A DNA stretch of 64,000 nt, taken from Auricularia sp. M13 (taxonomy: Eukaryota; Basidiomycota; Agaricomycetes; Auriculariales; Auriculariaceae). A model generated the notes under the pieces. The model saw only the letters and a list, made by a program, of their open reading frames with translations. It did no database searches and had not been told where the DNA came from. The stretch spans positions 2,728,001-2,792,000 of the forward strand of contig CM073193.1 of assembly GCA_037042915.1 (NCBI GenBank). The letters are read 5' to 3'. A program made the translations under genes and the position numbers. Below, in pieces: positions 17,972 through 39,825 of this stretch. The first letter of the stretch is position 1, and each line of letters begins with the position of its first letter.

Positions 17972-19252
17972 CTACACTGGGGAAGAACTCGGTGCCGCTG
18001 ATATCCAGACGGGTGCGCGTAGATCCTCTAAGCTGAGCTGTGAAATCATTTCCCGCATTGACGCTAGCACGTCTCCGGCTATAGGTCTCTCTTCCGGTAA
18101 GCTTGAAGTCATTCTCTTTATGAGATCGAGGAGAGGTGCAGGCATGTTATTCGTCTACCCTCCGATCAGCAAATATCCTGAGATAAAACGTGGCACAGAC
18201 CTCCGATATATGAGAGAAATAAGTTCCGAGCTGCCAGATGTCCGCACGAAAGGGATTGTGGGGCTCAGGCTTGTCCATTTCCGGTGCGGGCGGAACGTTG
18301 TACTTCCATGCATCCGGGTCGTCGGGCGTGTTGTACGGTTGGGGTCGTCCCCACACGAGGTGGGTACTGGGATCAGAGTCGAGATCGAAGCATGCAGCAC
18401 GTTCGAAGTCGATCAGATAGACCATGAAAGGGAATAAAGAGCGCAGTGGCCGAACCCTACGCCCAGGGGAAGGAGGATCGAAACTCGTGTCGAGGTCCGC
18501 CGCGCCGTAAAAATTGCAAAGGAAATTCCCCTCAAAAATATCCTGCAGGCATTAGAATGAATAATACCCTTCAGAAAAAGCTTACCCTGTGTGCCACGAG
18601 CCTTGAATGACAGAACTCGACAGCCTACGGAAAATCAGACCAGCATTTTCATCATACCTTATTCGCACCTCAATCATCTGGTAGAAATGCTGCACGAGGT
18701 CGCGCGTATCTTCATACAAGTAATCGGTCGTAGGATCGAACATCGACAAGAACGGAAACACCGCAAAAAAGAGGTCCTCCAGTGTCAGCCATTGCAAGAC
18801 AGGTATCGTGTGGTTGCCAATGACCGATGCAATGTTCCCCGTTGCGAGTCGTTCCAAGGCCATCCTATGGTGAATTCCGTCCTGGCCTATCGAAATCAGA
18901 CGTATCACGACGTCTCGTCCGTCCCTCGTGCGCGCCGGGCAGATGAAAGGAGACTATCGATAATCAGATTTCAGATACGAGACGAAGTCGTACATACCGA
19001 TTGGCAGAAATCGTGAACTTTGTCCATATCGTCTGGCCATCGATAACTGAATCCATCCGGTGCGCGCGCGCGCGCATCGGGGGGAGTCAACTGTGACCTG
19101 CTTTCCGGAAGGTGGTTCCAGAGGGTCAAACCGCGAGAAAGGAAGAATGGCTCTAACGCAGCCCAGACCGTTCGCAAATTGAAAGTATCATGAAAGCCCT
19201 CTTTACGAGTGATTTCTTTCAGCGCCTTGAGAGAGCGAGGGAACTGGTCCAT
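17972..19252 (-). CDS. Kinase-like protein, family copy A (probable pseudokinase)
   Basis: Five exons (19252-18998, 18953-18669, 18624-18586, 18542-18201, 18154-17972), all phase 0, 367 residues. The N-terminal block MDQFPRSLKALKE precedes a kinase-like domain. DVVIRLISIG takes the VAIK place with Arg for Lys. FCHSRLVAHR joined to DIFEGNFLCN is an HRDxxxxN catalytic loop, with Phe where HRDLK has Lys. YLIDFE replaces DFG, PAPEM stands for APE and DIWQLG for subdomain IX. The tail has ERPIAGDVLASMREM. It binds an unknown partner or nucleotide; activity is doubtful without the Lys and DFG Gly. The best matches are the other copies at 22-23, 28-29, 36-37 and 38-40 kb. Confidence 0.85.
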
Positions 19253-19670
19253 GGCAAGCAGGGGTAAACAAACAAATCGGCACTTGACCGTACCGTAGAC
19301 CGACTCATAACCTTCCGCCTCGAGGCATAACTTCGCAATTCCGTGCAACCTCGAGAAATTGCGATACGATCTTCGGGGATATGAGTCGACTTGCAGTACA
19401 GTGCAACTTGATGGCGCAGGGTCCAGGGACAGTCCGGGACGACAAAACTCAACTCTTCTAGCACCTCTATTGTTCCAGCAAGCTCCCGGGAGACGAAGTA
19501 GGTGCGTGGGGGAGGACGGATCCGGCGAAGGGTTAACTTCTCACATGTCACAGCTGACAGGAGCGTGGTTCCCGGGTACTATTGGTGCCTTCTGGGTCTA
19601 TAAATCCCCGAAGAGCTGACTTGGAATATTCATCCTTTCATCTCGCTTTTCGTACTCGGATACTTCACTC
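19253..19670. other. Intergenic stretch upstream of kinase-like copy A
   Basis: No supported gene. A TATAAA lies at about 19599-19604 on the plus strand, 65-70 nt before a possible small gene at 19671. Confidence 0.4.
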
Positions 19671-20097
19671 ATGGCTGACGCGTACTACCTTGTTGTCTCC
19701 GGACCGCCTCGGTATATCGGAAGATATGGCAAACAGCTTACCGACTAATCTGACACGGATGTATGTCCTCGACGTGCGCACCGCCGTGGGTATCATGATC
19801 CTGATTCATATCTGGATTGTAGACAAAGGGCGTATTCAAGCTCAAGCTCAAGTTTAAGGACGGTACCACGGAGTACTTCGCCATCTCTGAGATTGAATAC
19901 GACGGCAAGTGCGTCCACTTCGTACCCTCTCTCGATGATAGCAAAAGATGACCTCGAATTCAGCGTCACCGCGGCCACTTGAACGTTCCAGCGCTTCGAA
20001 GCGAATGTCGTGTGCGCTGCGTGGTGGGATGTGGCAATGTACCGCGATGTGTTCGAGCCGTCTGTCCACACCGTGGGCTCACCATGTCTTCCCAAAT
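19671..20097 (+). CDS. Possible small spliced gene, structure unresolved
   Basis: A TATAAA about 70 nt upstream, an ATG followed by ADAYYLVVSGPP, and a downstream frame reading VFKLKLKFKDGTTEY and AISEIEYDGK look like one small beta-rich protein. The pieces are not in one frame, however: an intron from 19712 does not reach an acceptor with the right phase. Either a base is missing, as in several nearby genes, or this is a relic. No function can be assigned. Confidence 0.28.
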
Positions 20098-20714
20098 GTA
20101 ATATGAATGTCTTGTCTTGTCATTTGGCCACCCGAGTAGCTGCAGAGTGCATGCTTTGGACCACGAGATGACCCAGGAAGACCGTGAGGGAATATTGCAA
20201 GCGTGATGACACAGTACCATCGATGTGGCTAAGGCTCCAATCGATGGAGAACAGCGGAACCACAACCACCACGACACGTATCGCCGGGTGACAGGTCTTC
20301 CTATTGCTCCTGGAAGCGGTTGCACGGCACTGAGGGCTTCCTGCTCAAAAGTCCGAAACACGAGTCCCCGCCAACTGTTTGGCGCCAACTGTTTGGACGA
20401 GCCAGAGGACCAAATTTCGAACGGGGTGAGCCTGCAAAAGAAGAAGGCACAGAAGCCGTTGGCGGGTGGGGGGTGTTGCGGGTTGAAGCATGGCTGGAAT
20501 CGCAGTGTACCCAGGGCGCAGTTGTCGCCAGGTCGGTTCCAAGGCTTTAAGAGCACTGTTGGACAATAGCGTGAAAATGGCAGGAATCGGACCGGTCAAG
20601 ACCATCCGATGCAATGCGAATATTATAAGATTAGTACGACAACGCGATAGCGACCACGTCCTATGAACGTATGAGCTCAGGGTGACACAGAACGAAGGAA
20701 AGCTGGTCGCACCA
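20098..20714. other. Intergenic stretch, nothing recognised
   Basis: Short frames on both strands; likely 3' flank of the uS11m gene. Confidence 0.4.
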
Positions 20715-21569
20715 TCATAATCTACGCGTTTTCTTCGCCCGCGTGCCACCAATCTTTATCGGTGTGCAGTCGACAAGCCATCGGACCATCTTGGCCGTTT
20801 CCGCACCTTCCTGCGTGAGCAGCGCACGGTAGACGGCGTCTCGTCCCGGACCAAAGCCGTCAAACTTGAGAGTAAGCTCTATGTTGTGAGTTGGTGTCCT
20901 TTTCTCGGCAGCAGCTTTCGCAGCGGCAGCAGCAACGGCAGCGGCGCTCTTCGTCAGAGCGGGTTTCTTCGCGTCAGCAGCGGTGGCTCCGGCGGCGTTC
21001 GTCCAACCGTTGAGCTCGTTGTATTCCTGGGCGATCCGCTTGAACATGTATGCCGCGCACTGGTAGCCAGCCTCGTACGACGAGCGGTTCGATTTTCTGA
21101 ACTTGAGCAGGCCGGCAGAGACCCAGCCCTTCTTGGGCACCTTGCCGCGCGGGTCGGTCAGCGTGAGCATCGTGTTGTTGGGGCTTGCGTGAATGTGCAG
21201 CGTGTACGGCAGCACGTTGAGCCTCGGTGCCCTGGCGAACGACTGGTTCGTCTGCACGCCGAGCGGCAGCGAGTCGAGGTCCGGTCCTGTCGGCGGCTGG
21301 GTGTCCGCTAATGGCACCTCCGCAGAACCGAATGGGGCAGCCGACGCAGCCACCTCTGCAGCCTCGATGTCGAGCTCCTTGCCGCCCAGCGGCCGCAGAG
21401 GCTGCACAGCGGGGGCGCGTTTTGCCTCGGGCGGCGCGCCCAGGTCGGTGAGTATGTTGCTGACTACGTCGGACACGGCGGACGGCTTCGGGTAGTTCAG
21501 GACGCGTCTGGATGTCGAGAATGCGGCATGGCCATGGACGCGCAGAGCGCGACACCCGACGCGGAACAT
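20715..21569 (-). CDS. Mitochondrial small-subunit ribosomal protein uS11m
   Basis: Single exon, 284 residues. The N-terminus (MFRVGCRALRVHGHAAFSTSRR) is a typical mitochondrial import signal. After a variable linker, the S11 fold begins with YTLHIHASPNNTMLTLTD and continues GWVSAGLLKFRKSNRSSYEAGYQ in pieces. It ends with the conserved basic tail TPIKIGGTRAKKTRRL. An Ala/Lys-rich insert of about 40 residues lies in the middle of the S11 domain, as in other basidiomycetes. It is the counterpart of yeast Mrps18 and human MRPS11. Head to head with the Qcr9 gene, 68 nt between starts. Confidence 0.93.
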   Translation of the reverse strand: MFRVGCRALRVHGHAAFSTSRRVLNYPKPSAVSDVVSNILTDLGAPPEAKRAPAVQPLRPLGGKELDIEAAEVAASAAPFGSAEVPLADTQPPTGPDLDSLPLGVQTNQSFARAPRLNVLPYTLHIHASPNNTMLTLTDPRGKVPKKGWVSAGLLKFRKSNRSSYEAGYQCAAYMFKRIAQEYNELNGWTNAAGATAADAKKPALTKSAAAVAAAAAKAAAEKRTPTHNIELTLKFDGFGPGRDAVYRALLTQEGAETAKMVRWLVDCTPIKIGGTRAKKTRRL

Positions 21570-21637
21570 TGACTGCCTGTCGGAGGTTCAAATCTGGACT
21601 TGATAGCTCTCGACCTTCGTTCATCCAGCTGCCAGCC

Positions 21638-21992
21638 ATGGGCGTACGTTCAGACCCGTTCTGTTGAAATGGCTCTGCGTGCTGAATCTGCCCATTTGTT
21701 AGCTTGCCGACGTCCTCTATAACACCATTTTCCGCCGCAACAGTTCGTACGCTCTCTTCCACTTGAGCTCTTGCTGACTGAGTTGCTCAGGCGTCTTCGT
21801 GACTGCCGTCTTTGCCGGCGCATTTACATACGGCGTCGGATTGGACGTGGGCGTCACCGCGTTCTGGGACAGGTGGAACAAGGGGGTGCGTCCTTGCTTG
21901 CACTCACCGCCGTTCTTGCTGACGCCCGACTGTAGAAGCAATGGAAGGACATCCGCCACCGCTACATCCAGCAGGAGGATAGCGACGAATAG
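21638..21992 (+). CDS. QCR9: Cytochrome bc1 complex subunit 9 (Qcr9)
   Basis: Small single-span subunit of respiratory complex III in the inner mitochondrial membrane. Four exons (21638-21643, 21703-21742, 21791-21885, 21936-21992) give 65 residues. LYNTIFRRNSVFVTAVFAGA opens the helix; the family hallmarks GVGLDVGVTAFWDRWNKG and KQWKDIRHRY follow. The first exon encodes only two residues (Met-Gly). The second intron starts with GTTCGT, a weak donor, but splicing there restores the family sequence exactly. It shares a very short divergent promoter region with the uS11m gene, so two mitochondrial components may be co-expressed. Confidence 0.93.
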
Positions 21993-22316
21993 ACCTGAAT
22001 CTCTCATACAATACACCGTCGTGTTGCTATTGCTGCAATTTTGCTGTGACTGAGCTGCACTGACCGCTGTCAGCCAACACGCACGCTCGTGAGCGTGAAT
22101 CTGTAAGTGTTCCCTCATATACCGCGCGTTAGGCCTGCTCAATGGCATACTATTCTTTAGAAATATCCCCCGGGAAGTGCAGCAAGTAACCAGGCCTGGT
22201 TCATAGGCCTACGTCGTTGCCTTGCGGTAGTCTTTCGCGTGCCAAAGCGCACTGCAAGTAGACATATTCAGATCGTTAAAGTCAAGTGCCGGGTTGTTCA
22301 ACTACCACTGCTCGAC
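21993..22316. other. Intergenic stretch between Qcr9 and kinase-like relics
   Basis: No gene seen. It contains the Qcr9 3' flank. Confidence 0.4.
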
Positions 22317-22505
22317 ATGGACCAGTTTTCTCGCTCTCTGAAGGCACTGAAAGACACCACTCGTACAGAGGGCTTTCATGGTTTCTTCAACCTGAGAACG
22401 ATCTGAGCGCCGCTGGTGCCATTCTTCCTTTCTCGTGGTTTGACGCTCTGGCAGCACCTTCCGGAAGGCAGGTCACAGTTGGCTCCCTTCAATGCGCGTG
22501 CGGCA
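22317..22505 (+). pseudogene. Kinase-like family, N-terminal relic (B1)
   Basis: The ATG is followed by DQFSRSLKALKD and TEGFHGFFNLRTI, nearly the same as exon 1 of copy A. A TGA then interrupts the frame where A has the codon before AAL. After it, FFLSRGLTLWQHLPEGRSQL continues the match. There is no exon 2 behind it; instead a second N-terminus of the family starts 130 nt further on. It is a non-functional fragment closest to copy A. Confidence 0.85.
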
Positions 22506-22631
22506 GTATGAATTCAGTTAACGATGACCAGACAATCTGGACAAGCTCTCTGGTTTCCGCCAAGTGGTATGTGCACCCTGCAGCCAGGCATGTCCGAGCT
22601 GCCGCTTTGTTTGTTCATTTCGTTGCTTGAC

Positions 22632-23520
22632 ATGGTACTGTCATGTTTGCCTCGCTCGCTTGAAGAGCTGAAGGACGATGCATTCGACAACCATGAGCTG
22701 CGCAAGAACTGGGATCCGCTCGAGCCGTATTTTCGCTCCCAAGGTCTCGCGTTGTGGGTGACACCACCGAACAACTGGCCGGGCAGCGGCATCGTTCTCG
22801 CTCATTTGTACCAGATGGCCGAGGTGGGCATCTTAACCCGTGAGGGATTGGCATTCTCTCATGTAGTACCAGGCTGTAGAGTTCTGCCATTTGAAGCTCG
22901 TGGCTCATAGGGTGAGCCTTCTCTGCCTGTCCAACTGAATGCTTTGTCTAAATGCGCGCAGGACCTCTTCGAGGAGAATTTTCTCTGCGATTTCTATGGC
23001 ACAGGGGACTCCGACTCACGAATCAGCCCTCCTCCCCCAGGACGCGCCGTCAGGCCACTGCGATTTTTCTTCCCATTCACGGTCTATCTCGTCGATCTCG
23101 AACGCGCGGTCTGTTTCGCCCTCGATTCCGACCCCGCCACACACCGTCAAAGGCCGCCCGCTTCCATATTTCGACCCCAATGCCCCGGCGAAGACTCAAT
23201 GGTAATATAATGTTCCTGTCGCTCCCGAGATGGACAAGGACGAGCCTTACAATCCCTTCCCTACGGATGTTTGGCAGCTGGGGACTTAGTTCTCCCACCT
23301 AGAAGAGGTCTATCCCGCGCATTGCCGTAGCGATCCAGAGCTGACGTATTATCCCAGAACAACACGCGCGCAGGTGCTGGCCGTCATTCGACGGATGACT
23401 GCCGAGTCGCCTTCGGATAGGCCGGCGGCCGGAGAATCATTGACTGCGATGCGTGACCTCAAGACGCAGCTCAGTCTGGACGAGCTGCGTGCACCAGTGT
23501 GGAACCCTCCGAGTGCCGTG
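22632..23520 (+). pseudogene. Kinase-like family copy B2, deleted and stopped
   Basis: Starts like the family (LPRSLEELKDD, then LEPYFRSQGLALW). It jumps within one exon from the end of exon 1 to LYQMAE, the last residues of exon 2, so the APDGF block and the whole N-lobe including the VAIK-like strand are gone. The 39-nt exon (AVEFCHLKLVAHR) and DLFEENFLCDF are intact. DFG is DLE here. The activation region is frameshifted, and DVWQLGT is followed by TAG. The last exon (RRMTAESPSDRP, LRAPVW) is still readable. It cannot give a folded kinase-like domain. The right end is approximate. Confidence 0.85.
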
Positions 23521-24870
23521 CTCGTTGTTTCTCAGTCCCCACCAAAGATGTCAAGTCCTGCCCAATCCAACCGTTCTTGGTGCTGCCTACTGCACTTCTT
23601 GTCGATGCAAATGACGGTTGATTCCATACAGCACCGCGAGGAAGGTGCGTCCCATACCACGCGCAGCTCCAGAGCTGCAATTGCTTCGCCGCGAAGCCTG
23701 CACCACAGATATAACACCATCAACGACTTGAAACTATCCACGACGCTGCTGGCAGCACACAATGCTCATCTACCCATCCCGTCCAGCGAAATGTTGCCCC
23801 AAGGCGACCAGAAACACCAGAGCGGGCAAGTGCCGACAGCCCAGAGTTATAATCTGTCCCAGCTTCGGCTCTGCACAACCCGGCGCTATGGGTTACAATG
23901 GTACCAGGAAGAAGAACGACCGGAAAACTATCCAAGCTCCGCCGCCCTTCTTCGCTAACTACTATGCAGCGCGAGCTTTGCACCCTCAGGTTCTTATAAA
24001 ACCTCATTTATTAAACTGGTTGCCGGCGACGGTTACTCGGGATAACTGCAATTATAACTGCAATGACCACGAACTATCCACGACCGTTCAAGCATCCAGT
24101 TCGCACAACGTTATTCACGCATGATCTGGTGGTCCGAGCGCGCTTCTTGACCAGCAGAACCTATTACCCTTATATTAACCATATGACGAACATTAGGAAT
24201 TCTGGTCTGTGTTCTTAGTCTGCTCTAGGACCGACGGTGGGGTCGCTCTCACTGCCGCTTCTTATATACACAACTGAAACTCTGACCCATGACCGTCCGC
24301 GGCCCAATATTAGGTCCGTCCGTCTCCGGTGTCTTGAAGCTGGTAACTGACGTAAATACCGTTGCCGTAGTGGTGTCCTCAACATATCTGAAAGTCAGGC
24401 CAATACTATTACCATGTACGATTCACCTTGGTTCAAACAATGACCAGTTGCTCAGAACTATTTTCACTGAGGTGATGAGTGTTCACATTGACCCAGTCTC
24501 TACCTCTGCTCTACGCGCCTGAGACAATAGTATTTCCCACCGCCGCCACGCTTGAATAAGCTGTGCTCTGGTTCCCTCATACTCCAACGTAGTCTAATCA
24601 TCGTATTTTCAGCTTTGCCGCTCATTGTGCCGAAGCGTCGCGAGGCTGAGTCTTGTTCAACACAAAGATACTTCGAGGACGACTTCAAGACACTTCCTGG
24701 TTGATGCATGGACTTGAAGCGTAGACTCCGTAGAGTACGTCTATTTGATGCTTATGCTAATGGATACAAACTCTACAATGAGTAGTTTTATTGATTTCGT
24801 TGCTGCAGAAGACTTGTTAGTCTCAAGGTGATGTTTGCTACTGTATGGCGTGTAGACATACTGACATGAT
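23521..24870. other. Intergenic stretch, nothing recognised
   Basis: About 1.3 kb of short frames. An open frame continues from the B2 relic but has no motif beyond it. Confidence 0.4.
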
Positions 24871-25445
24871 TCACTGCTTTCCCAAGCCGAGCTTATCCAT
24901 TGCGCCACCCACTGCCCGCTCTGCCTTGGCTACAAAGACCGTCAGCTGGGCCGTCGTGCAAGCGAGTGACGCCGTACCCTTGATACCAGGCTGGTCGTTG
25001 CGCTCCCTGTCGGCCGTAGCAGTGTTCGATCCGAACATGCTTTCGTCAGTCGCGCCGGATGCGCGCCCGCCATAGGCGCCAGTCGGCTCGCCCGCGACAG
25101 TCGAGCGGCCAGTGACACCATTGTTGGCGTAATTGTCCGACGTGTCGCGGAAGTTGGCTGCGTCGGACGTGCCGGTAGACGTGCCCGAGAAGGCAGGGTC
25201 GGGCACGCTGGGCAGCTCGGTGCGCGGCTGCGCGGACGCGCGCGTGCGGTCAATGTTCGCGTTGGGGTAGCCAGACGAGTCCGCGGGGAAGTGCGCGCGC
25301 GAGGTCACGTCGCCCTCGTTGCCAAAGGACGCGTTGTCCACTGCGCTCGAGCGCTCGGACTGAGGGGCGTAGGTGTTGACTGCCGACAGTCAGCGCCGGC
25401 CAGCGGCAGGAAACACTGAGAACGCTCACAGTTGTTTGTCGACAT
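24871..25445 (-). CDS. Small hydrophilic disordered protein, stress-type
   Basis: Exons 25445-25430, 25379-24978 and 24929-24871 give 158 residues. The sequence is rich in Ser, Thr, Asn, Asp and Gly, lacks hydrophobic segments and cysteine (after correct splicing), and should be disordered. It ends in a short amphipathic segment (KAKAERAVGGAMDKLGLG) resembling the end of fungal stress-induced or CsbD/LEA-like small hydrophilic proteins. The second intron (48 nt) removes a stretch that would otherwise read SLACTTAQLTVF, out of character with the rest. A TATA box lies about 50 nt upstream. Function not known; protection under stress is an inference from composition only. Confidence 0.75.
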
Positions 25446-25491
25446 GATGGTTCAGGTTCAAGTTGGAGAACGGCAGGGGGCGGCGTCGCGG

Positions 25492-25499
25492 TTTATAGA
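25492..25499 (-). promoter_or_regulatory. TATA box of the hydrophilic protein gene
   Basis: On the minus strand the sequence reads CTATAAAC about 50 nt before the ATG at 25445, which fits strong or inducible expression. Confidence 0.55.
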
Positions 25500-27615
25500 G
25501 CCCTGTGGGTCACCTACGTCACCGACGATATGCGTGCTCCAACGCGCAACAGCCAATGCGCCGCCAACGGACTCCGAAGACGCGCGATTCATTTATGCAG
25601 TATGGTCACCATCGAGTACAGGTCCTGAACAGTCAGTTGTCGCGTCGTTCTTGCTCTATATTTTTACAGTAAATGCAGCTGGTTCGCCCATCGAACTGCT
25701 GCAACGAATGGGCTATGAGGTCGACTCCAAACTGTACTCGCACCAGGGAAGCCACATATACTCCAACGTTATATCATATATTGATTGAGGACTATTACCG
25801 CACAGCTGGCAACTATGACGGAGCTTCCCAACTTGGCTGTGCCACGCGAACCACTCAACGAACACGAAAGCTTGCCTCCATTCCTACTCGGGAACGCTCA
25901 ACTCTGAGAGTCCATCCTCATACATCACTGGGAGGGCGCCTGCACGACCCTACGGGGGAGACACAGCCAGAGTTTAATGTAAATTCCGGCCCTTCGCGAG
26001 GTTAGTTCATCCGGGAGTGACAGCTGTCGCCAAAATCACCAAACATACCTGTCCGGTGCGCGAGGCGGCGATTTCACTAGCCTCGCTTCCTGTCGTGCGC
26101 TTGCTGGCAGATAGTACTCCAGTGGGAGGAACTTTACTGCCTTCTGCGAAGAAAATACATCTATTACACAACAGCTGTCACGCCTCATCTATTAAATATG
26201 GAAGGGTGAAATAAACTCATTCAGACGAGCATTTCGAGTCCTTGGAGAATGTAACTCCCCAGAAAATGGTTCACTGCCATTGGTTGGACGGGACATGGAC
26301 TCGGATGTTCCGAGTCTGCTCTTTCCGATACGTCCGCGATGATGCCTGCTGCCTTGACCGACCTCGCGTCCGATTTCACGGCCAAGCTCTGGCATCCGTC
26401 TACCCACGGCGCTCATACCACGTCAGAAATAGCTCCAGAAATCACGATGACTCGAGACATCTGCCTTCCGGCCCCTTCGAAGTTCGCGGCAGTCCAATCT
26501 CTCGACGCACCACTTCTATGCAGTGCGCATGCAAACACCGTCGCACGTGCCCTTCTACCACAGGCAATATGACTCGTATTTTACTCCGGGGTTGCGCGCA
26601 AGGTTGCAGAAACGTTTTTCTGCCGGATAACTGCTCTATCGCGAGTCCATTAACATGTCAATGGTGGACTAGTTTCCTCATAAAATCCGACGACATGCAA
26701 CGACTCTGAAACCATAGCTTCTGTCCACCACATTGGCCGAGATTCGTAGATTCGTCCGCGAGCATGGCTGGTTCCATATGATCGAACGCGTTTCCGGTGC
26801 CGCCGAACAAACTCATGACTGTCAATCCTGGCGAGAGCTCTCTTACGAGAACTCTTTTTGCCGCATTTCACAATGACAATGTGTACGGCTCGCATGTCAA
26901 ATGCTCTCAACTACGCCGCCTGCTCCAGGCCTCCTCCCATTCCGATAAATCGTCGTCCTCTTATCCCTTCTGCCGCGCAGGCCTGCGCGGTCAATAGGTT
27001 TCCGGAAGTCTGTGGAAGCCGTGGTGCTAATGTTTGGTCCTTCAGGTCAGGACCGTCAGGTGGCATGTTGCGCAAGGCCCGCAGGGTTTTCGGGCTCTGC
27101 TTATCGATGGGCTTTGTCTCTGCTTCGAAATTTCCCCACGGTCTGGCAGTGCGCGGCCATTCCAACGACATTTTGGCACCCCCGGACTTGCCTACTTGTG
27201 GTACTATAGCGATGGCTACCGTTGACCTGAACGCCTCTGACAACGCTGTGGTACATTGGCCAGCCCGACTAGAGGTCCTGCTTTCATCTAGGCGTGCGAT
27301 TGTTACTCCAGGCTGTGCGGAAGACTCCTCCCGGGAGATGCATCATCGCATGTGACACTTCATCGATTTCCCAGGGTGGTGTAGCCACGATTTTGTACCA
27401 ATACGGCTGCCATCGATAACAGGCTCGTCCCACGGATTGTTCTAGCTCATGGGGTGCTCATCTCGAGTGCAGCATAACGGATCGACTCATGGGTCATTGA
27501 CCTGACTTCGGACACGAAGGTAGCATTGGAAAGTACATTGGCGCGGACTACAACAGGTTATGACGACAGGTTCAAAGCTAATAAGCGACACATTCTTCAG
27601 GTGGGTGCCACGATA
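25500..27615. other. Long intergenic stretch, no supported gene
   Basis: More than 2 kb with only short, motif-free frames. I found no transposon ends or RNA gene. Confidence 0.4.
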
Positions 27616-27889
27616 CTAGAACATGGTCAGCTCGCATCGTAAACGTTCGAAGACTGGAACGTACTGCGGTGGGGCAGGGTCGAGATTCACCAGCGGAAGG
27701 CGCACTTTCACGCCGCTGGCAAACTGGAGCATGAATTCGGCACCAAGAGGCTGTAGCAGACGTCTTTAGTGGCTATGTAGATGACATGAGGAGGTTACCC
27801 ACGCCTGGAGCTGATTCATTGGGGATATGCTTGCCGTATTTGCCTTGGTAGGCAGCAGGTCCAACTCTCACGAAGTAGAACAAGGCCAT
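27616..27889 (-). CDS. Possible small membrane protein or 5'-truncated gene
   Basis: Two exons (27889-27803, 27750-27616; donor GTGGGT, phase 0) would encode 73 residues. The open frame extends upstream of this Met without a new ATG and reads VATFIPYPAATILYSILMA, so the true start may lie in an earlier exon. That exon would have to overlap the promoter of kinase-like copy C at 28056. The first part is hydrophobic; the second exon reads FASGVKVRLPLVNLDPAPP. A TATATAA-like box (27965-27972, minus) is present. I do not recognise the family. It may be a gene cut off by the duplication that brought copy C. Confidence 0.32.
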
Positions 27890-28055
27890 GAGTATGGAAT
27901 AGAGGATCGTTGCAGCGGGATATGGGATGAAGGTTGCAACTGGCTGAGCCGGAGTTCCCTCATGGTTTATATGCCCTCTCCGTTAGTTTGTGCGCATTTG
28001 GTTCAATGACGCCGGATCCGACCGATTGTTGACCTGTGGTTGTCACGCTTCAGCG

Positions 28056-29355
28056 ATGACTCAATTTCCTCGCTCGCTCAAAGATCTGTGCGATGCTATT
28101 CAGACCACCAGCGATTACCGGTCTATATGGACGCCGCTCGAACAGTTTTTCGCGTCGCATGGATTCACATTGTGGTTGAATGCGCCGGACGGATGTGGGC
28201 AGATGGTTCCGCCTGACAACCGTTCGAGAGCGCCGGATGGCTTCAGCTATCGCTGGCCGGACGAGGTGGACATGTTCTATCACTTTGTAATGACGGTAAG
28301 CTGTCGAGCTACCTACGAGACGAGTCAGGGTCTGAATATATACCCACAGAAATCAACATTGTGTCCAGCTCGCTCCCTGGATGGGAGGGACGTAGTCATC
28401 CGCGTTGTTTCGATTGGGAAGGAAGGAAGCAACCAATTGCAAGCCTTGAAACGACTTGCCACCGGAAACATTGCGTCTGTCATCGGCAACCACGCGGCAC
28501 CTGTACTGCAATGGCTGCACAGGGATGACATTACGTTCGCTGTGCTACCATACTTGTCTCACGGCGACCCTACGTTGATGTATCTTTACGAAAACACCCA
28601 GGATCTCCTGAATCATTTGCTGCAAATGGTGGAGGTTAGTCCGTTTCGCTGCCAAACTTTCGACTTTCTCACGGATTTTAGGCTGTAGAATTTTGTCACG
28701 CGAGACTCGTGGCTCATAGGGTAGGCTGTTGGCCTCTTAGGCTTTCTCTTTGCTGAAAATTGCAGGATCTCTGCCAAGAAAACTTTCTCTGCAATTTCTA
28801 CGGTGCTGCTGGTGTCGACGTAAACTACAATACGCAAGCTCGAGGGCGTCTAGTCCGCCCATTGCGCGCGCTCTTTCCCTTCAAGGTCTATCTCATCGAT
28901 TTTGATCGGGCCGTCTGCTTCGATGAGGGCTCCGACCCCCAGTCGCACCTTGTGACAGGTCTACCAATCCAATCTTTCGATCACGATGAAGTGCAGTGGG
29001 CCCGACCCGTCGCGCCGGAGGTGACCTCAGACAAGCCGCACAACCCCTTCATGACCGACGTCTGGCAGCTGGGAACATATTGGGCCGAGGTGGAGGAGGT
29101 AAGATCATGTCAGGTCAACGTCAGCGTCTAGGACTGACGCAAAGTCGCCAGGAGAATCGCATGCACGAGTCACTCCAAGCATTGATCGCTCGCATGACTG
29201 CGACCTCGCCTGAGGATCGTCCGACTGCGAGAGAAGTAATGCTGAATCTGCGCGGCATCCTGTCTCAACTCAGCCTGGAGGAACTGAGATCACCTGTGTG
29301 GAAGGATCCCTCTCTTCAGAATAACCAACCCCCCAAGAGCAGTATTCCAGTGTGA
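28056..29355 (+). CDS. Kinase-like protein, family copy C (probable pseudokinase)
   Basis: Exons 28056-28295, 28350-28634, 28682-28720, 28766-29098 and 29152-29355, all phase 0, 366 residues, no internal stop. MTQFPRSLKDLCD opens the protein. RAPDGFSYRWPDEVD comes before the kinase-like part. DVVIRVVSIG has Arg for the VAIK Lys. AVEFCHARLVAHR joins DLCQENFLCNF to form HRDxxxxN. YLIDFD stands where DFG should be. VAPEV and DVWQLG follow. The last exon (RMTATSPEDRPTAREVML, then SQLSLEELRSPVW) resembles subdomain XI. Closest in its tail to copies A and B2. No signal peptide or membrane segment; cytosolic or nuclear. Confidence 0.86.
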
Positions 29356-29484
29356 CGGTTTTGCATGCACCATGGCGGGTCTGGTAGTCTAACGCGATCG
29401 TGATGAATCCTGTGTACAATAGCCACTGCAGCTGCAATTGAGATGCGACGCTTCCTGCGAAACCATCAAGAGTCAAAGAGGGCA

Positions 29485-31198: not shown

Positions 31199-31310
31199 GA
31201 CGGGAAAGGCAAGAGAGGAGCACGGACTTTACACCGCGTTACGGCCGCGTGTTTATGTATCGCACTGTACGCAATTATTCGGTCAGAACCGACGTTGCCT
31301 GAGCTGATGC

Positions 31311-32248
31311 ATGTGGCCCAGAATTACCGATGATGAGCAAGACTGGGTCCTCCAATCCGAAGAAATGCAAGAAGGACCAGCTGACCAAGCAGACAGGTGC
31401 GTCCACGAGCCTAGCCCGCATTCATGACGCGAACTGACTGCTAATGACAGCAATGGCGAGAATTCCGGAATAGAGCGAGATGGAGAAGCAGTTGATGAGG
31501 AAGCGCTGCTTGACCGGTAAGCCATTTCGTGCAAGAGTCCTTCAGATTCAATATCTGAGCACCGAGTCAGACATCAAGGGCGGTTCTTCGTTGCCGACGA
31601 CGAGCAAGGAGACGCCTATCGTGAAAGTGACCACGATCTCGTGTTATATTGTCCGTCTGCTTCGAGCCCAGTCCCAGAGTAAGCAGAATAATGCACCGCT
31701 TTGTCGACGCTGCAACTGATACGGCAGGAGCCCATCGGCCACTCCGATACGCAACTGTCCGGCCTTCACCTCGCTCTTCTCGAATATCCGAGTAGACAAC
31801 ATGGTCTCTGGTGACACTGGAAGCAGGACTCGAGAACAACGACCCTGCGGACGTGTTTGACAACAGCCCAAAGCCATCGGACGAGACAGCTCTGCCGGAA
31901 ATCGTGCCAATGATCGAGCTGAGCAACGTTATCTCGGGCGATATCCTGGATATATGTGATCGCGGATCTACCGCAGAGACGACGACGGCCAGCACGCTGG
32001 ACGCGGACACCAACGCAGAGAATGAAGGGCCTGTGTTTGAGAAAACCGTTTCCGCTGGCACAAATGAGGGCGAGTTGCAGCAAGAGGACGCCATGGACGT
32101 CGACATAGACGACCTAATTGAGGCCAAGCTGAGGAGCAACGAAGAGGACGACTCGGAGCAGGAAGAAGAAAGCGTTGAAGTCATCCTGGAGGACTATGAT
32201 TTTGTCGATGTCGACAGCGAGCTCGAGGAAGGCGAGATCCGAGAGTGA
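31311..32248 (+). CDS. Acidic protein of unknown function
   Basis: The start at 31311 reads MWPRITDDEQDWVLQSEEMQ. Exon 1 (31311-31396) joins exon 2 (31451-31516), which reads NGENSGIERDGEAVDEEALL, and exon 3 from 31571 (HQGRFFVADDEQGDAYRESD). The last exon (from about 31798 to the TGA at 32246) is very acidic and ends in SELEEGEIRE. How exon 3 joins the last exon is unresolved; a TAG at 31795 sits exactly at a possible acceptor. The acidic composition and lack of membrane segments suggest a nuclear or chromatin-linked protein, but I recognise no domain. Head to head with Nop9 (112 nt between starts). Confidence 0.6.
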
Positions 32249-32550
32249 AAAGAAGAGCATAAGAGAGAGAGAGCAGGCGCTGGATGCCCCGAGTCTTTGC
32301 ATGTTAGATTGTTAGCCCGAAGGATGAACAGAAGCAAAATAGCAGCGGTTGCTAACAGTTAGCGTTTGCATGCCGATCGAAAGATTGCGAGACGCTCACG
32401 CAGGCAAGCTCTGCTGCTGAGCGCTGTCTCCAATGACTGATCAGTGAACAGCCCCGCGTAATGATATGTGTATCCTACACCTCCGCTCGCGTACTGTCCA
32501 CCATTCCATCTATGCGCGTGAACGATTTTCACCTACCAGAGCGGCCGTAA
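32249..32550. other. Convergent 3' spacer
   Basis: About 300 nt between the ends of the acidic protein gene and the Per1 gene. A short GA-rich run at 32260-32275; no gene. Confidence 0.5.
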
Positions 32551-33682
32551 TCAAGGTACGATCCTGTCACGTTCCCATCCCCATGCAGAGTCTTGAGCGT
32601 CCTGTATCAAGAACCCGTACCAATACACCACAATAGGCGCGGTAGCCAAGTGCCAGAGGGCATGAGCATCCAGCACCCGACGCCACGGCGGAAAATCCAG
32701 CAGCTCCAGGCTCATGGCGAGCATGGTCAGGGTTACGGCGATGAGCGGCTTGCTGGCATATGGTGGGCGATACTCGCGCGTACGTGCGGGAAAGAGACGC
32801 AGGGTGGGGAATGGTGGCGAGGAGTTGTATAGCAGCCAGACGACGTTGTGCAGCATCCCGATCGCGACTGAGGCGCGCATATTGTACCCATAGTCAAAAC
32901 GCGGTGCGGTGGAAAGATATAGGATGTGCAGGGAGTAGAGGACGCCGCATAGCAGAGCGAGCAGGACGAGCGGGCGGGTGCGATCGTTTCGGTGTTGCAC
33001 GTAGCCCGATGTCATCCGTGTCCGCGAGACGGGAGGATAGAGGCCGAAGACACGTACACAGGCCATGAAGAAGCCGTACATAATACTCGCAGCCGCCGAG
33101 AAATAATCCAGTCGTTCCGTCCATGGCTTGTCTGTTGCATTGTGTGAGCAACCAGCCAGACAACGAATCTGGAGCATGCATACCACGCGTATGAAATATG
33201 GCACTCCATATCCACGCGTTTAGTCCGACATAGGCAAACATGAGCAGGAACGGACGCATGGGATGGCCGTGGGCTACCTCCCGCCGCACGCGTCGCAGCC
33301 CGTACGCGTGACCAGCAAGATTCAGCAAGGAAAATACTACAGACGCCGGTTCCTGCGCGCCCAGGTAGCGCCAGAATGGCCATTTGCCGTAGTACTGGTG
33401 TATTCGCGTGTCTTTCGAGTTGGGTGCCAGCGCAGCGTCCGTGAGCGCATGCATGCAGGTGTATTTGCAGTCATCTTCGCACGACCATTTCGTAAGACGC
33501 AGCGCGAACGACTGGCGGGGGCGTGCCCACGGCGTCGGACACGAGGTCGCGGTGCAATGCGACAGACAGTGCTGGAAGCCCGGAATCCGGTCGCCAGAGG
33601 AGGCCAATGCACATGGCGCAGAGAATAGCACGGCTAGAGTGAGGCCGGCACTGGCACGCATCGCAGCGGGCGCAGTGAACAC
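32551..33682 (-). CDS. PER1: Per1-like GPI-anchor remodelling enzyme
   Basis: Per1/PGAP3 proteins remove the sn-2 fatty acid of GPI anchors in the ER. Exons 33682-33184 and 33131-32551 give 359 residues. A signal peptide (LTLAVLFSAPCALA) is followed by the Cys-rich lumenal part (FQHCLSHC, then TKWSCEDDCKYTCMHALTD). Then come the family block QYYGKWPFWRYLGAQEPASV, seven or so membrane helices, the AIFHTRDKPWTERLDYFSA motif with conserved His and Asp, and a final HALWHLATAP motif. All CREST-superfamily catalytic-type residues look present. The start could also be the second Met at 33661. Its start faces the m6A methyltransferase gene, only 44 nt away. Confidence 0.94.
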
Positions 33683-33726
33683 CCAGTTCGGCTGTTTCCA
33701 TTGCGCATCGCTCAGCGTCCACTGCC

Positions 33727-35550
33727 ATGTCCGACACCGCGTTCGTCGAGCTCGTGAGCGCCCAGCTGCGCGCGTACCTAATTTCTGGCGACGCCCAGCT
33801 GCCTATCAAGTCCTTTGACCTCCTGCGCACGCTCATCCAGCGCCAGAGCAGCCGCGGCCATGCCTCGCCCGATGCTGACCGACGGCGAGCGCGGCTGCGG
33901 CTTACGGACCTCCAGAAGCTTGAAGCCGCGCTAGATAGTTTGTCGGACGACTGGGAGTACGGTCACCTTGAGGTCGCCCACGACGTGCACGGCATTGTCC
34001 TCGTCGACGCCCAGGTGCTGGCTGGTGGCGCATCAAGGAAGCGCAAACGCGACGAGCCCGAGGACCAGATCGATTCTGTGGCCATACCGAATGCCTTTAC
34101 ACCCGCGCTGAAGAACGGCAATGGCCTTAGGGAGGTCTATGCGCTCCTCCAGCACGGCTCGGCCAAGCGCAAGCTCATTGCGGAGCAGGTGCGCAAACTG
34201 TCGTTCTTGACGTCTCAACTGACTCTTGCTAACAGTTCGCCTCGCCTGATCCTACGTACGCGTTCGAGCCCATCTGCCCCCACATCACCAAGGAAGAATG
34301 CGCCGCTACGGACGCCTCGAACCAGTACTGCGAGAAGGTCCACTTCCGGCCACTCATCCGGCCGCACACGGACGCCGCTCTGGGGCACTGCTCCTACCTC
34401 AACACGTGTTACTCCGAACCCACATATGCCATGTCGCCCAGTGTACACGTGAGTGCCATGAGCACCAGCGGCGGCAAGACGCTTCCCAGTGGTCTCGGTG
34501 CTGGTGGCCGCGGCAAGGAGAAAGCGCCCTGTCGATACCTGCATTTTGAGGTCGACTATGACCCTCAACAGGATGGGCCTGCGAGGAGACCCGCTGCCAA
34601 GAAGGAAGAGCATAGGCTGGAGCTTGGACTGGGCCCCGATCGTGGGCTCAAAGACCCAGTACGTCGTCGAAGAACGTTGGTTTTCCGGGATCGAACTCAT
34701 TGCCTGCGCAGCTACCACCACAATGGATCAATTGTGACATCCGCAGGTTCGACTACAGCGTCCTGGGCAAGTTTCACTGCATCATGGCCGACCCACCATG
34801 GGATATCCATATGAGTGTGCGTTCGATGGAATGTGTTCCTTCGCCGCCAATGAACTGAACTCTAACAATAGCTTCCCTATGGCACCATGACGGACGATGA
34901 GATGCGTAGCATGCCAATTGCATCACTTCAAGACGAAGGCCTTCTCTTCTTGTGGGTCACGGGCCGCGCGATGGAAGTCGGGCGTGAATGCCTACGCGTG
35001 TGGGGCTACACTCGCGTGGACGAGGTGATATGGCTCAAGACGAACCAGCTGCAGCGCGTCATCAGGACCGGCCGCACGGGGCACTGGCTCAAGTACGCTC
35101 TTTACCTTGCGCTCCTCGGAGTGACGGAAGTATTAACGCAGGCCCGGACGCAGTCACACGAAGGAGCACATGCTCGTCGCCGTCAAGACACACTATGACG
35201 CGCAGGGGAACCTCAAGTGGCCCAGCTGGTGCAACCGCGGCGTCGACACGGACGTGATCGTCAGCGAGGTGCGCGAGACGAGCCGCAAGCCGGACGAGGT
35301 CTATGGCTTGATCGAGCGTATGTGCCCTGGAGGGCGTAAGATAGGTTCGTGAACTTCGGTCATGGCTACCTCAGGCTGAACTTTCGCAGAGATATTTGGG
35401 AGGAAGCACAATGCACGACCAGGGTACGCGTCAGTGTGTTTCCTGAAGCGCCTGACTGACGGCTACTTCAGCTGGCTCACTCTTGGAAACCAACTTGGCG
35501 GGGATCAAATACACGAGCCGGACCTGGCCCAGCGTATCGTAGCGCGGTGA
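33727..35550 (+). CDS. IME4: m6A mRNA methyltransferase, METTL3/Ime4 type
   Basis: Methylates adenosine in mRNA with SAM; in yeast Ime4 drives entry into meiosis. Exon 1 is 33727-34188; the last exon ends at TGA 35548. The N-terminal region has a basic patch [11 protein letters not shown]. Two CCCH-type zinc fingers follow (CPHITKEEC with YCEKVHF, then GHCSYLNTC) and a later CRYLHFEVD element. The catalytic domain has [25 protein letters not shown] with the DPPW catalytic motif, [35 protein letters not shown] after splicing, [16 protein letters not shown] and [18 protein letters not shown]. All are characteristic of METTL3 rather than METTL14. It looks intact. Confidence 0.94.
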
Positions 35551-36348
35551 GTGATTCGAATACCGTCGAACATCGAACTTAGGGCTCAATTATCCCGGGA
35601 CGGCAGATATCCCGAACGAGCGGCAGCGCAGCTTGTGCCCTCTGGGTCGCAGCACTGAATTTACTGACCCTCATTTCTTCCGCTTCATATTCGACAGATG
35701 TAAACATCGGAGCATCGGACGTTTCTCCATAGCGGATATAGAATGCAGTCAACATATGGACCAGAACGCTCACGCTCTGCACGATTCTCACCTCGCTGCG
35801 GACCGTCGATAATGAAGATCTCACCCAACTTGACGTTATCTGTTTCCCGCACACGTGCACGACCGCAGGGACACCATTCAAGCCAGTGAACTATCAAAAA
35901 CGCAGGAGGCGGTAGGCGTTCATGGATATTGATTGAGGCGGATGGTTAACAGGACATCGTTCTCTTCAACCGACGTTGATCAGGGACTGATTTCTTGATA
36001 GGCGATTGAGACGAATAATATTGACGAAGACTGCGACCACATTCTCATCAGGTCTTCTCTGAGAATGGACCGGGCTGTTTGACTCTGAACTGTGATTGGC
36101 TGGTTGCCTTTTTGACAGTGAAAGGGGCTGACAGAAAGCAAAACGGCTAACGCCGAGAGATGTCAACCTTCACCTCGTTCGGATGCGGGAGGTCCTTTCA
36201 AAAATCGCATGTCGTGAACTCTTGAAATCGTGTCTGGCAGTCGCAAAATATCCGCCGGTACTCCACATAGCGAATCATTCTCGGGAAGCCGATCTCGTTA
36301 AATGAGGAGTCAGAGGCGACGAAAATCCCCGTTCTGGTTGTTCTAGCG
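35551..36348. other. Intergenic stretch upstream of kinase-like copy D
   Basis: The only sizeable frame (minus, 35881-35579) has no recognisable motif. I looked here for the missing N-terminal exon of copy D and did not find a convincing match. Confidence 0.4.
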
Positions 36349-37464
36349 ATGATCAAGGACGGAGAGACTAACACCGCGATCAGTCGGGCGCCTGACGGAT
36401 TTCATTATCGTTCACTGGGAGCTGTTGACTGGGAGCAGCCATTCCTCCGTACTGTACATCGGTTATCAGCTGAACATTGTCGTTTCACTAACGCTGTCGC
36501 AGTCACCAACGTTGTGTGCTGCCCGAACCACCGATGGCCGAGACGTGGTGATACGGCTCGTGGCAATCGGCGATGAGGGACTCCAGCAAAAGATTGCGCT
36601 AGAGCGACTGGCTACGGGGAACATTGCGTCGGTCATTGGAAACCACGCAGCACCAGTGCTTCGCTGGTTACATCTGGACAACCTTACCTTCGCCGTATTC
36701 CCTCACTTATCTCTTGAGGACCCGACGATGCTGTATCTTTACGAGAACCTGCAAGATATCATGGGACATCTCCTGCAAATGCTTGAGGTATGCCTCCGAC
36801 GAGCATGGTCAATGTTGCTCACGCGCTTTCCCCCAGGCCGTGGCATTCGCACACTCGAAACTAGTAGCTCATCGAGTATGGATCAGTCATTTTCCCCTGA
36901 CAGTTGCTGATTGCATATCAAGGACTTATTCAGCGGCAACTTCTTGTGCAATTACATCGGCGGCCCTGACTTCGACACGGTCGCCTGTGAATGGTATCCC
37001 GATGCAAAAAGGATGATCACACCATTTCGCTCACTATTTCCCTTCACGATCTATCTCATCGACTTTGAGATGGCAATATGCTTTGATCCCGACTCAGATC
37101 CCGCAACGCATCTGGCATCGGGCTTACAACCGCTCGGTCGGAAGCCCGAGGGTTATCTTCGCCCCAAGGCCCCGGAGCTGACTCGCGATGAGCCGTATAA
37201 TCCTTTCTTGCTGGATGTGTGGCAGCTGGGAACGTACTTCGCACAGCTCGCGGAGGTGAGACTATCAGTAGAAGTTAGCTGGTCCTTTCGTTTGCTAACA
37301 TCTCGCAGGCCAACGACATGCCTTCTTCCGTCCTTAACCTCATTCAGAGGATGACAGCATCCGTATCGACCGAGCGGCCGACCTCTGCTGAATGCCTGGA
37401 AGAGTGGCGTAGGATTATATCGAATCTTACCAAAGACGAGCGGTTGGCTTCCGTCACGCTGTGA
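36349..37464 (+). CDS. Kinase-like protein, family copy D (N-terminus short)
   Basis: Exons 36349-36453, 36503-36787, 36837-36875, 36923-37255 and 37309-37464, all phase 0, 305 residues. The kinase-like part is complete: CAARTTDGRDVVIRL (Arg at the VAIK Lys), AFAHSKLVAHR joined to DLFSGNFLCNY, YLIDFE for DFG, KAPEL and DVWQLG. The tail (ERPTSAECLEEWR) is closest to copy E. Compared with A, C and E, the first 40 or so residues (xxQFPRSL, then FFxSHGLxLW) are missing. The frame upstream only vaguely recalls that block, so the 5' end was truncated or has decayed. The start at 36349 is the first usable ATG. Confidence 0.72.
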
Positions 37465-38591
37465 CAATTTTGGAGCTTCCACCACGGCTATGTTGTCTTC
37501 CTTCAATTGTATAAGCAGTACAGACAGGAGGTGCATGTCACTCAAAGAAATTGAATCATAGGACTGCACTGATATTGTGTGGAGCATCTACCATTACTCC
37601 GAGTCGATGGATATTATATAGACAATTGAACACATTCTCATCGCAAGTTACAAGTCATGAAGAGTGTTGGCAGCTAATCGAGGGACGTGCAATCTTCAAG
37701 AACGTCCGGGAAGAACCAAGGTATCGCTGGCACGATCGGTAAGCTCATTGGCAACTCCAGTTTCACTCCTTAGCGCTTACCTCTACACCAGTTCGAGCTC
37801 GCTAAATGCGAAGAATGCCTGTTTTCCATCTAGAAACACGAGTCGAATGTAAAGCACGCCGCCCTTCGTATGCAATAAGCCTTCAGCTCGATGGATACAA
37901 CCTTGGCAAACGCACCAATTTTTGCGAAACGCCCATGATTTGTGTCCCGGTTCTACCGTAGAAAGGACCGTACTTCTTGACAATGTACTGCGGTGGCGGA
38001 GACGACATGTTTCGCGTCAGAGGAAGTTGGCGTACGGGGAGGAATGCGGCGTGCAGGTGAGCGACTCCTCCGATGCCCAACCGCCTTTTGTAGGAAGTCA
38101 GCCGTGGTGGAGTGCTTGTCAAACAGTCGGAACCATGCGTGCCAGGCTGATGGAATGGTAATCCGTGGTGAGAGAACTCCGTTTTGTGCCCATTTGCCGT
38201 GGGTTCTCTCATGCTCGTGGCTTACTTGCACCACGTCGGAAAACGTGCCCAATCGCGCTCACGCGTCCCTGAGGGGATTTCAGTCAATCCAAAGACGAGC
38301 TCCTGTAACAAAAAAGCAGGCAATTCTCCCACCGATGAGAAGTCCATATGATAATGGCGAGGCAGTTTGGACACTGCATAAACTTGCAGTTTCGAGTAGC
38401 AGGCGATGCCTTAGATGCACCACGCTCCGTGGTGATCAATATCAGTCAGAAAGCCTGATTGCCGTCTAAAATGACATCTCACGCATCGTGGCAGAGAACT
38501 GCGGTTGCACCACGACAAAAAGGAAAGCACTTACCGGTAAGAGCAGTGGCGGCAAACACCGTTCGTTCTCAACTTCTCTCTCCTGACCGTC
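37465..38591. other. Spacer between kinase-like copies D and E
   Basis: About 1.1 kb. No gene and no further fragment of the family recognised. Confidence 0.4.
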
Positions 38592-39825
38592 ATGGAGCAA
38601 TTTCCAAAGACATTCAAGGACCTCTTCGCTCGAGATTCAAGTGGAATACACCCTCGTGCCATTTGGGATCCTCTAGCTGAGTTCTTCAAGTCCCACGGCC
38701 TTGTTCTTTGGCGCATGGGAGACGAAATCCGGACATCCGATCCACCTGACAGTCGCATCCGAGCCCCGGACGGTTTTCATTACCTCTCGGCTGAAAACAT
38801 CGATTGGACGCATCCATTTCTTCACAAGGTATGCATTCACCTGGTTCTGCAACCCTGTCTCAACGGCGTTTCGCAGTCACCCACGTTGTGCCCTGCTCGC
38901 ACCACGGACGGTCGCGATGTGGTCATACGAGTGATATCTTTTGGATCGGATGGCCATCAACACAAGCAGGCAATGGAGCGTCTTTCGACAGGCAACGTAG
39001 CCTCTGTCATCGGGAACCACGCGGTGCCGGTTCTGCAATGGCTACACCTGGACGACACGACATTCGCCGTATTCCCTTACCTATCGATCCTCGACCCGAC
39101 CATGAGGTACCTATACGAGAACGTTGAGGATCTCATGGCGCATATGCAACAAATGCTAGAGGTGGGATCTCATCGCTCACGACCTTCGATCGCCACTAAT
39201 GGCTTTGTAGGCCGTTGCATTCTGCCACTCCAAACTGGTCGCTCATCGGGTTAGTCGACGAGGAGCTTCTATTATCACTGCTGACAATGCAATCAGGACA
39301 TCTTCGACGGGAACTTCCTATGCAACTTCGTCGGCGGCCATGAGTTCGACACGTTCTTTTCTTTGCCACTGAACGGGCGACCGGTCAAACCCTTCCGCTC
39401 CCTCTTCCCTTTTACGCTCTACCTCATCGACTTCGAGATGGCGGTATGCTTTGATCCTGAGTCTCCTCCGTCTACGCATCTCGTCTCGGGCGCACCAACA
39501 ACGGGCGACTACGAATACGCACGTCCAAAGGCCCCAGAGCTTCTGACAGACCGCCCGTACAACCCGTTTCTACTGGACGTGTGGCAGCTTGGGACATTCT
39601 TCGCAAATATTGGAGAAGTGTGTGGGTCCATAGCGCTTTCTAGCTTGCTCATGATGATTCTAGAGCAATGATCTACCTCCCGCTGCTGTCCGCTTGATCG
39701 AACGAATGACAACCGCGGTGCCATCCGAGCGTCCAGACGCCGCAGAATGTCTGGCCGAATGGCGTGCCATATCGTCTCGGCTTACGATGGACGAGCGAAA
39801 GAGGGCTGCGGTACGTGAACATTGA
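38592..39825 (+). CDS. Kinase-like protein, family copy E (probable pseudokinase)
   Basis: Exons 38592-38828, 38877-39161, 39211-39249, 39297-39617 and 39664-39825, all phase 0, 347 residues. MEQFPKTFKDLFAR and LAEFFKSHGLVLWRM form the N-terminal block. DVVIRVISFG has Arg for the VAIK Lys; AVAFCHSKLVAHR joins DIFDGNFLCNF (HRDxxxxN); YLIDFE replaces DFG; KAPELL and DVWQLG follow. The last acceptor is TCTAG before AGCAATG; the alternative three bases later would give an immediate stop. The tail ERPDAAECLAEWR pairs it with copy D, 1.1 kb upstream in the same direction, so D and E look like a tandem duplication. Confidence 0.85.

Follow-up and report, generated by a model that had tools for sequence, protein, structure and literature searches.

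A genome-wide family of pseudokinase-like proteins, apparently kept by selection, in the fungus Auricularia sp. M13

What remains of a protein kinase when the lysine of its VAIK motif has become arginine and the glycine of its DFG motif an acid? The question is raised by positions 17972 to 39825 of a 64-kb window of contig CM073193.1 of Auricularia sp. M13 (the window being the whole stretch of DNA analysed, to which all positions given without a contig refer), in which an earlier note had described six loci of one kinase-like protein type: genes A, C and E intact, gene D shortened, and B1 and B2 ruined. Spliced gene models and fragment alignment confirm all six loci, exact coordinates included. 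VVIR stands at the VAIK motif, and HRD....N, APE and D[VI]WQLG are present, in 4/4 of the spliced genes A, C, D and E; the DFG glycine is absent, the motif reading DFE in A, D and E and DFD in C, while the broken B2 reads VDLERA, in agreement with the VVIR and the DFE, DFD or DLE of the note. We find it well supported that these genes belong to a real family of pseudokinase-like proteins that appears to be selectively kept. With regard to what the proteins are, we assign a probability of about 0.6 to their being constrained pseudokinases with helix αC in the out position, in which the arginine would be paired to the DFG aspartate or to the new acid and the protein would act allosterically.

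Pocket residues and selective constraint

The genome (52.1 Mb, 14 contigs) was searched for relatives, and 56 fetched loci were spliced, of which six (L023, L034, L059, L060, L065 and L099) were set aside; the other 50, together with the four window genes, make up 54 aligned rows that fall into three groups. The R group, hand-listed from the alignment and the tree, comprises 26 rows (22 fetched loci plus A, C, D and E). Its VAIK site holds arginine in 25/25 readable rows, one row having a gap there, and its DFG glycine site is acidic in all 26 (glutamate in 19, aspartate in 7); at the site of the αC glutamate, histidine is found in 16 rows and glutamine in 8, with glutamate in L061 and serine in the damaged L057. 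Among the 25 rows with the arginine, 24 have a residue other than glutamate at the αC site and 25 have an acid at the DFG glycine site. By the part of the bioinformatic definition of a pseudokinase which asks that at least one of the VAIK lysine, the HRD aspartate and the DFG aspartate be missing, the replacement of lysine by arginine would place all 25 readable rows in that class. The HRD aspartate is kept in 25/25 readable rows (L066 has a gap), the DFG aspartate in 26/26, and the catalytic-loop asparagine throughout the window subfamily (14 rows); in the L053-type sister subfamily (L053, L054, L055, L067, L072, L025 and L036), the site of this asparagine is glutamate in 7/7. The sister rows read HRDFSxxE and the like, with NDFE or NDLE as the metal-site motif. 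The best spliced model of L066 skips the HRD aspartate and the next residues, its exon 4 opening with NFLCN, which is either a true loss or an error of the splice model.

The K group (16 rows) is canonical, with lysine at the VAIK site in 15/15 readable rows, glutamate at the αC site in 15/15 and the DFG glycine in 16/16. The HLD group (12 rows: L079, L081, L083-L087, L090-L092, L094 and L100, on contigs C5 and C8) is defined by leucine at the HRD arginine, and this leucine is therefore no independent evidence. Its members keep the lysine in 11/11 readable rows, have serine or threonine at the αC site in 11/11 readable rows, and carry aspartate (8) or glutamate (4) at the DFG glycine site, in motifs reading DFD, DFE or DLE. 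A tree of the 54 rows, built with five pocket columns removed, supports the R group at 100/100 and the HLD group at 100/98; when the tree is left free, the DFG acid requires two changes, the αC glutamate three and the lysine/arginine exchange one. With R and HLD forced to form a single clade the log-likelihood falls by 8.5 units; as the p value of the approximately unbiased test (p-AU) is 0.11, a single shared origin of the DFG acid in the two groups is not rejected. The independent pairs number two, too few for significance. Within the R group the tree program gave a long-branch warning, and the node uniting the window subfamily with the L053-type subfamily is supported at 81/68.

All six arginine codons (CGC, CGT, CGG, CGA, AGG and AGA) occur at the VAIK site of the R group; AGA and AGG lie one step from lysine, and no R row has lysine at this site. 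At the DFG glycine site GAG, GAA, GAT and GAC all occur, and glycine is found in no row. The arginine (Arg97) is among 28 invariant columns of the 309 in the R group. A lysine elsewhere in the pocket, which the earlier note had named as a sign of an ordinary active kinase, was looked for, and no column of the 26-row R group alignment holds lysine in 50% or more of its rows. Ratios of nonsynonymous to synonymous rates (dN/dS) were computed for 21 pairs, which share rows, and dS was measurable in 17. The 16 R-type pairs among these give 0.09-0.33 (13 of them 0.10-0.26), and the K pair L069/L070 gives 0.05; dS exceeds 0.8, and is then rough, in 8 of the 17 measurable pairs and 7 of the 16 R-type pairs, and the nine pairs with dS under 0.25 have dN/dS of 0.12-0.33. 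Four pairs are saturated at synonymous sites, namely A/C (proportion of synonymous differences, pS, 0.765), D/E (pS 0.745), A/L066 and L064/L069. Because A/C and D/E are so saturated, the intact copies of the window must be regarded as old. Recent duplicates are known for C, whose nearest copies, L051 and L052 (dS 0.12-0.15), lie outside the window on contig C1 (2822-2826 kb). The idea of a young, partly decaying expansion consequently fails for the intact copies, and what survives of it is the damage to B1, to B2 and to the 5' end of D.

Kinase homology, distribution and gene structure

The kinase homology claimed in the note is borne out by Pfam Pkinase matches for all four genes. Against PF00069 (cut-off 31.7 bits), C (41.8 bits, E 1.1e-10) and E (40.3 bits, E 3.3e-10) score over the cut-off, and D (31.1 bits, E 2e-7) and A (29.1 bits, E 8.4e-7) fall just under it. 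The tie to the K-type relatives is strong: alignment by hhalign of seven window-subfamily rows with three K-type rows gives a probability of 99.7 (E 4.6e-27), and the micro-exon, in an identical position, and the N-terminal block described below add to it. A sequence search of the PDB returned 912 matches at E up to 1, and among the 60 matches listed all are named protein kinases (one of them a glutathione S-transferase fusion), the best at 1.2e-7. AlphaFold2 on the four window exons (exon 2, the N-lobe) gave a predicted local distance difference test (pLDDT) score of 67.8, and the 50 Foldseek matches listed for the predicted N-lobe are all protein kinase entries, none of them at E under 0.001; the structure predicted from the open reading frame (ORF) of exon 4 alone (pLDDT 37.2) is uninformative. 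The window genes share HRD, APE, D.W..G and the C-lobe arginine with the kinase domain of PF00069; unlike kinases of that profile, they are without the β3 lysine, the αC glutamate, the DFG glycine and the lysine after HRD.

FunK1 (PF17667, cut-off 24.1 bits), which is likewise a fungal kinase-like family and which the note had proposed as a profile to try, is set apart by that profile. With E values up to 1 admitted, none of A, C, D and E matches it, the sister members L074 (20.9 bits), L061 (19.7 bits) and L025 (15.7 bits) all remain under the cut-off, and its four matches in the genome, three of them over the cut-off, include none at the places found by the family queries. Identity with APH or choline kinases was rejected as a likeness of motif only, D being the one gene of the four to match PF01636 (cut-off 23.2 bits), at 13.7 bits and E 0.053. 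The window-subfamily alignment was also scanned once against viruses and once against prokaryotes, and none of the 64 and 61 pattern matches, respectively, was confirmed as a relative.

The note had called the family local, and this does not hold, since relatives are found across the 52-Mb genome. Two exon/ORF queries gave 47 and 49 matches that merge into 49 places; these counts are lower bounds, and merging fused neighbouring genes at two places (two genes each). Four of the 49 places look K-type (three as spliced, one by its better score to the K query), three are unplaced, and the rest, about 40 loci, are window-type or sister-type by similarity; a K-type query gave 77 matches in the genome. 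Loose clusters of family members lie on contigs C7 (1077-1123 kb), C11 (873-1016 kb), C2 (3943-4019 kb) and C5 (2257-2348 and 3905-3954 kb). Damage is seen among the fetched loci in the stops present in the best models of L023 and L065 and in L057, from which most of exon 2 is missing.

The models of A, C, D and E each have five exons, with all introns GT..AG and phase 0. Gene A (minus strand, 19252..17972; exons 19252-18998, 18953-18669, 18624-18586, 18542-18201 and 18154-17972) has 368 codons including the stop and reads VVIR, HRDIFEGN, DFE, APE and DIWQLG. Gene C (plus strand, 28056..29355; exons 28056-28295, 28350-28634, 28682-28720, 28766-29098 and 29152-29355) has 367 codons including the stop, with VVIR, HRDLCQEN, DFD, APE and DVWQLG, and gene E (plus strand, 38592..39825; exons 38592-38828, 38877-39161, 39211-39249, 39297-39617 and 39664-39825) has 348, with VVIR, HRDIFDGN, DFE, APE and DVWQLG. 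Gene D (plus strand, 36349..37464; exons 36349-36453, 36503-36787, 36837-36875, 36923-37255 and 37309-37464) has 306 codons including the stop and reads VVIR, HRDLFSGN and DFE; about the first 45 residues are missing, the N-terminal block is absent, and inspection by eye of the three plus-strand frames of 35900-36500, upstream of D, showed no QFPRSL block. Identity to E is 52% for C, 53% for A and 64% for D.

In all four genes the N-lobe, VVIR included, is encoded by exon 2, and a micro-exon follows as exon 3; exon 4 runs from the HRD aspartate to D[VI]WQLG, and exon 5 holds the C-lobe arginine. Exon 2 of E (38877..39161) covers the β strands and αC, with the VAIK-site arginine codon at 38928-38930 and histidine at the αC-glutamate site; its 39-nt micro-exon (39211..39249) ends in AHR, and exon 4 (39297..39617) then opens with the HRD aspartate and continues through the catalytic loop D....N, IDFE (acid codon 39435-39437) and APE to DVWQLG. 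This anatomy is family-wide. Among the fetched loci the micro-exon has a length of 39 nt throughout the R group (22/22 rows), whereas in the K and HLD groups it measures 38 nt in 23/28 rows and was not found in the other five, the downstream intron boundary of the R group lying one base from that of K and HLD; being without polarity, this difference leaves the question of origin unsettled. Viewed by eye, an N-terminal block FW..L.P.L...GY.L is shared by the three K genes inspected, and the W..F..FF..HG..LW part has a counterpart upstream of these K-type genes that reads FW..LQPFLLQRGYALRPRY and the like. Because of this counterpart, that part probably goes back to the ancestor of the wider family, and the view that the N-terminal block is foreign to a usual kinase is half right.

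Two ruined loci lie between A and C. B1 (plus strand, 22281..22572) is 80% identical to exon 1 of A plus about 36 bases upstream, is inverted relative to A and contains an in-frame stop; the inverted pair that it forms with the 5' part of A (18992-19288) is a trace of a past inverted duplication. In the pseudogene B2 (plus strand, 22638..23562) exon 1 survives in part, exon 2 is absent and exon 3 is present (22873-22911). Exon 4, from which the DLE reading derives, is broken by two stops and by a frame change near 23140, and exon 5 is largely retained (23368-23502, with weak similarity to 23562). A profile scan of nine neighbouring ORFs placed five over the cut-off in ordinary families (ribosomal S11, NOP9, Per1 and two thiolase pieces), the others being one sub-threshold SR-25 match and three without a match; the guanine plus cytosine content of the window is 56.6%. 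Profile scans of the genome gave 16 Peroxidase_ext (class II peroxidase) matches, which, together with this base composition, we take to suggest a white-rot Agaricomycete, as against one weak Hydrophobin match containing a stop (contig C4, 3365019-3365285), presumably fewer than is to be expected.

Readings of the altered pocket

In canonical kinases the αC glutamate is bound by the β3 lysine. If the R-type proteins are pseudokinases, then, with this partner gone, the β3 arginine would pair with the DFG aspartate, with the neighbouring new acid or with both, as the residues suggest, and the pairing would hold αC in the out position, as is reported for KSR2 (arginine near the DFG aspartate) and HER3 (histidine at the αC site). 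Efficient phosphotransfer would not be expected of such a protein. Because the asparagine and both aspartates are kept in the window subfamily, a nucleotide with one metal may still bind through them, and the protein would serve as a shape switch or would scaffold its partners, which are perhaps K-type relatives. We advance more tentatively, as a possibility about which we have more doubt than confidence, that a relocation of charge, in which the αC glutamate is lost and an acid appears at the DFG glycine, was fixed by selection, possibly repeatedly, and that the loci, numbering about 40, share one pseudokinase design. If true, these loci (26 rows examined) would form a natural series for a β3-αC bridge rebuilt as a β3-DF[E/D] bridge.

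Several observations weigh against the pseudokinase reading. Two columns, one of them beside the αC site, hold lysine in 7 of the 14 rows of the window subfamily, and several HLD rows carry a glutamate one or two residues beyond the αC site, which makes a shifted αC glutamate possible; such a shift would weaken the pocket pattern for that group. Retention of the HRD aspartate, the DFG aspartate and the equivalent of Asn171 in the window subfamily points in turn to an active atypical kinase, in which arginine and extra acid would constitute a working pocket, the acid aiding the metal while these three residues catalyse transfer to a protein or small molecule. We consider such an enzyme unlikely, if by no means far-fetched; the likeness of IDFE to what we take to be the APH/choline kinase motif and the sub-threshold APH match of D also count for it. 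A review reports that KSR2, with its β3 arginine, phosphorylates MEK1, and that the aspartate at the DFG glycine site of RNase L contacts a cation, yet it calls the β3 lysine, or another lysine in its place, absolutely required for catalysis in the kinases tested (PMC4718504). No conserved lysine was found in the R group, and the L053-type subfamily, with glutamate at the catalytic asparagine in every one of its rows, argues further against catalysis.

The pseudokinase reading has also to be set beside a nucleotide or metabolite sensor, in which binding through the asparagine, the aspartates and the extra acid would be reported by conformation, without catalysis. The metal ligands are kept, an acid is added to them, and nucleotide-binding pseudokinases are well documented (PMC4718504); a glycine-rich loop, however, was not seen by eye in the models of A, C, D and E, and we regard a sensor as improbable. 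Relaxed, decaying paralogues, with the substitutions being damage, can be given hardly any credence, even though B1 and B2 are broken, L023 and L065 contain stops and L057 is without most of exon 2, because the same substitutions are fixed over 25-26 divergent genes, the arginine codons are synonymously varied, and dN/dS in the 16 R-type pairs stays within 0.09-0.33.

Comparison with known pseudokinases

Pseudokinases are known mostly from animals, plants and apicomplexans, and in the open-licence literature we found no paper combining 'pseudokinases' with 'Agaricomycetes' and recognised none on this family. In one fungal genome the canonical state, a state with the lysine kept and the acid present, and the arginine state occur side by side with a shared gene anatomy, and it is therefore directly testable which pocket change ends catalysis and whether the DFG acid compensates for the lost αC glutamate. 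The family also bears on why mushroom-forming fungi retain so many kinase-like genes. As described, the FslK kinases of Agaricomycetes resemble this family in being an expanded, uncharacterised lineage of mushroom-forming fungi, but are predicted to be enzymatically active, unlike our reading of the R group; compared by description, FslK may correspond to some of these kinase-like genes (PMC3937382).

The closest parallels to the pocket are here compared by residue pattern, as given in one review (PMC4718504). KSR2, like the R group, has arginine for the β3 lysine and keeps the HRD aspartate, the asparagine and the DFG aspartate; its arginine lies close to the DFG aspartate and αC is out, yet it is active on MEK1. 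KSR2 differs in belonging to the animal Ras-MEK pathway, and those parts of the review describe no change of its DFG glycine (PMC4718504). HER3 has histidine at the αC site, as do 16 of the 26 R rows, and a bond from its lysine to the DFG aspartate; JAK JH2 shares such a β3-to-DFG-aspartate bond with the state proposed for the R group, but both HER3 and JAK JH2, unlike the R group, keep the β3 lysine and have asparagine for the HRD aspartate (PMC4718504). An acid at the DFG glycine site is shared with TRIB1/2, which read SLE and, unlike the R group, have also lost the DFG aspartate, and with RNase L, which has aspartate at this site and binds nucleotide through otherwise conserved residues (PMC4718504). 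Judged by its residues, the R group combines changes of these kinds: the arginine, the histidine or glutamine, and the extra acid.

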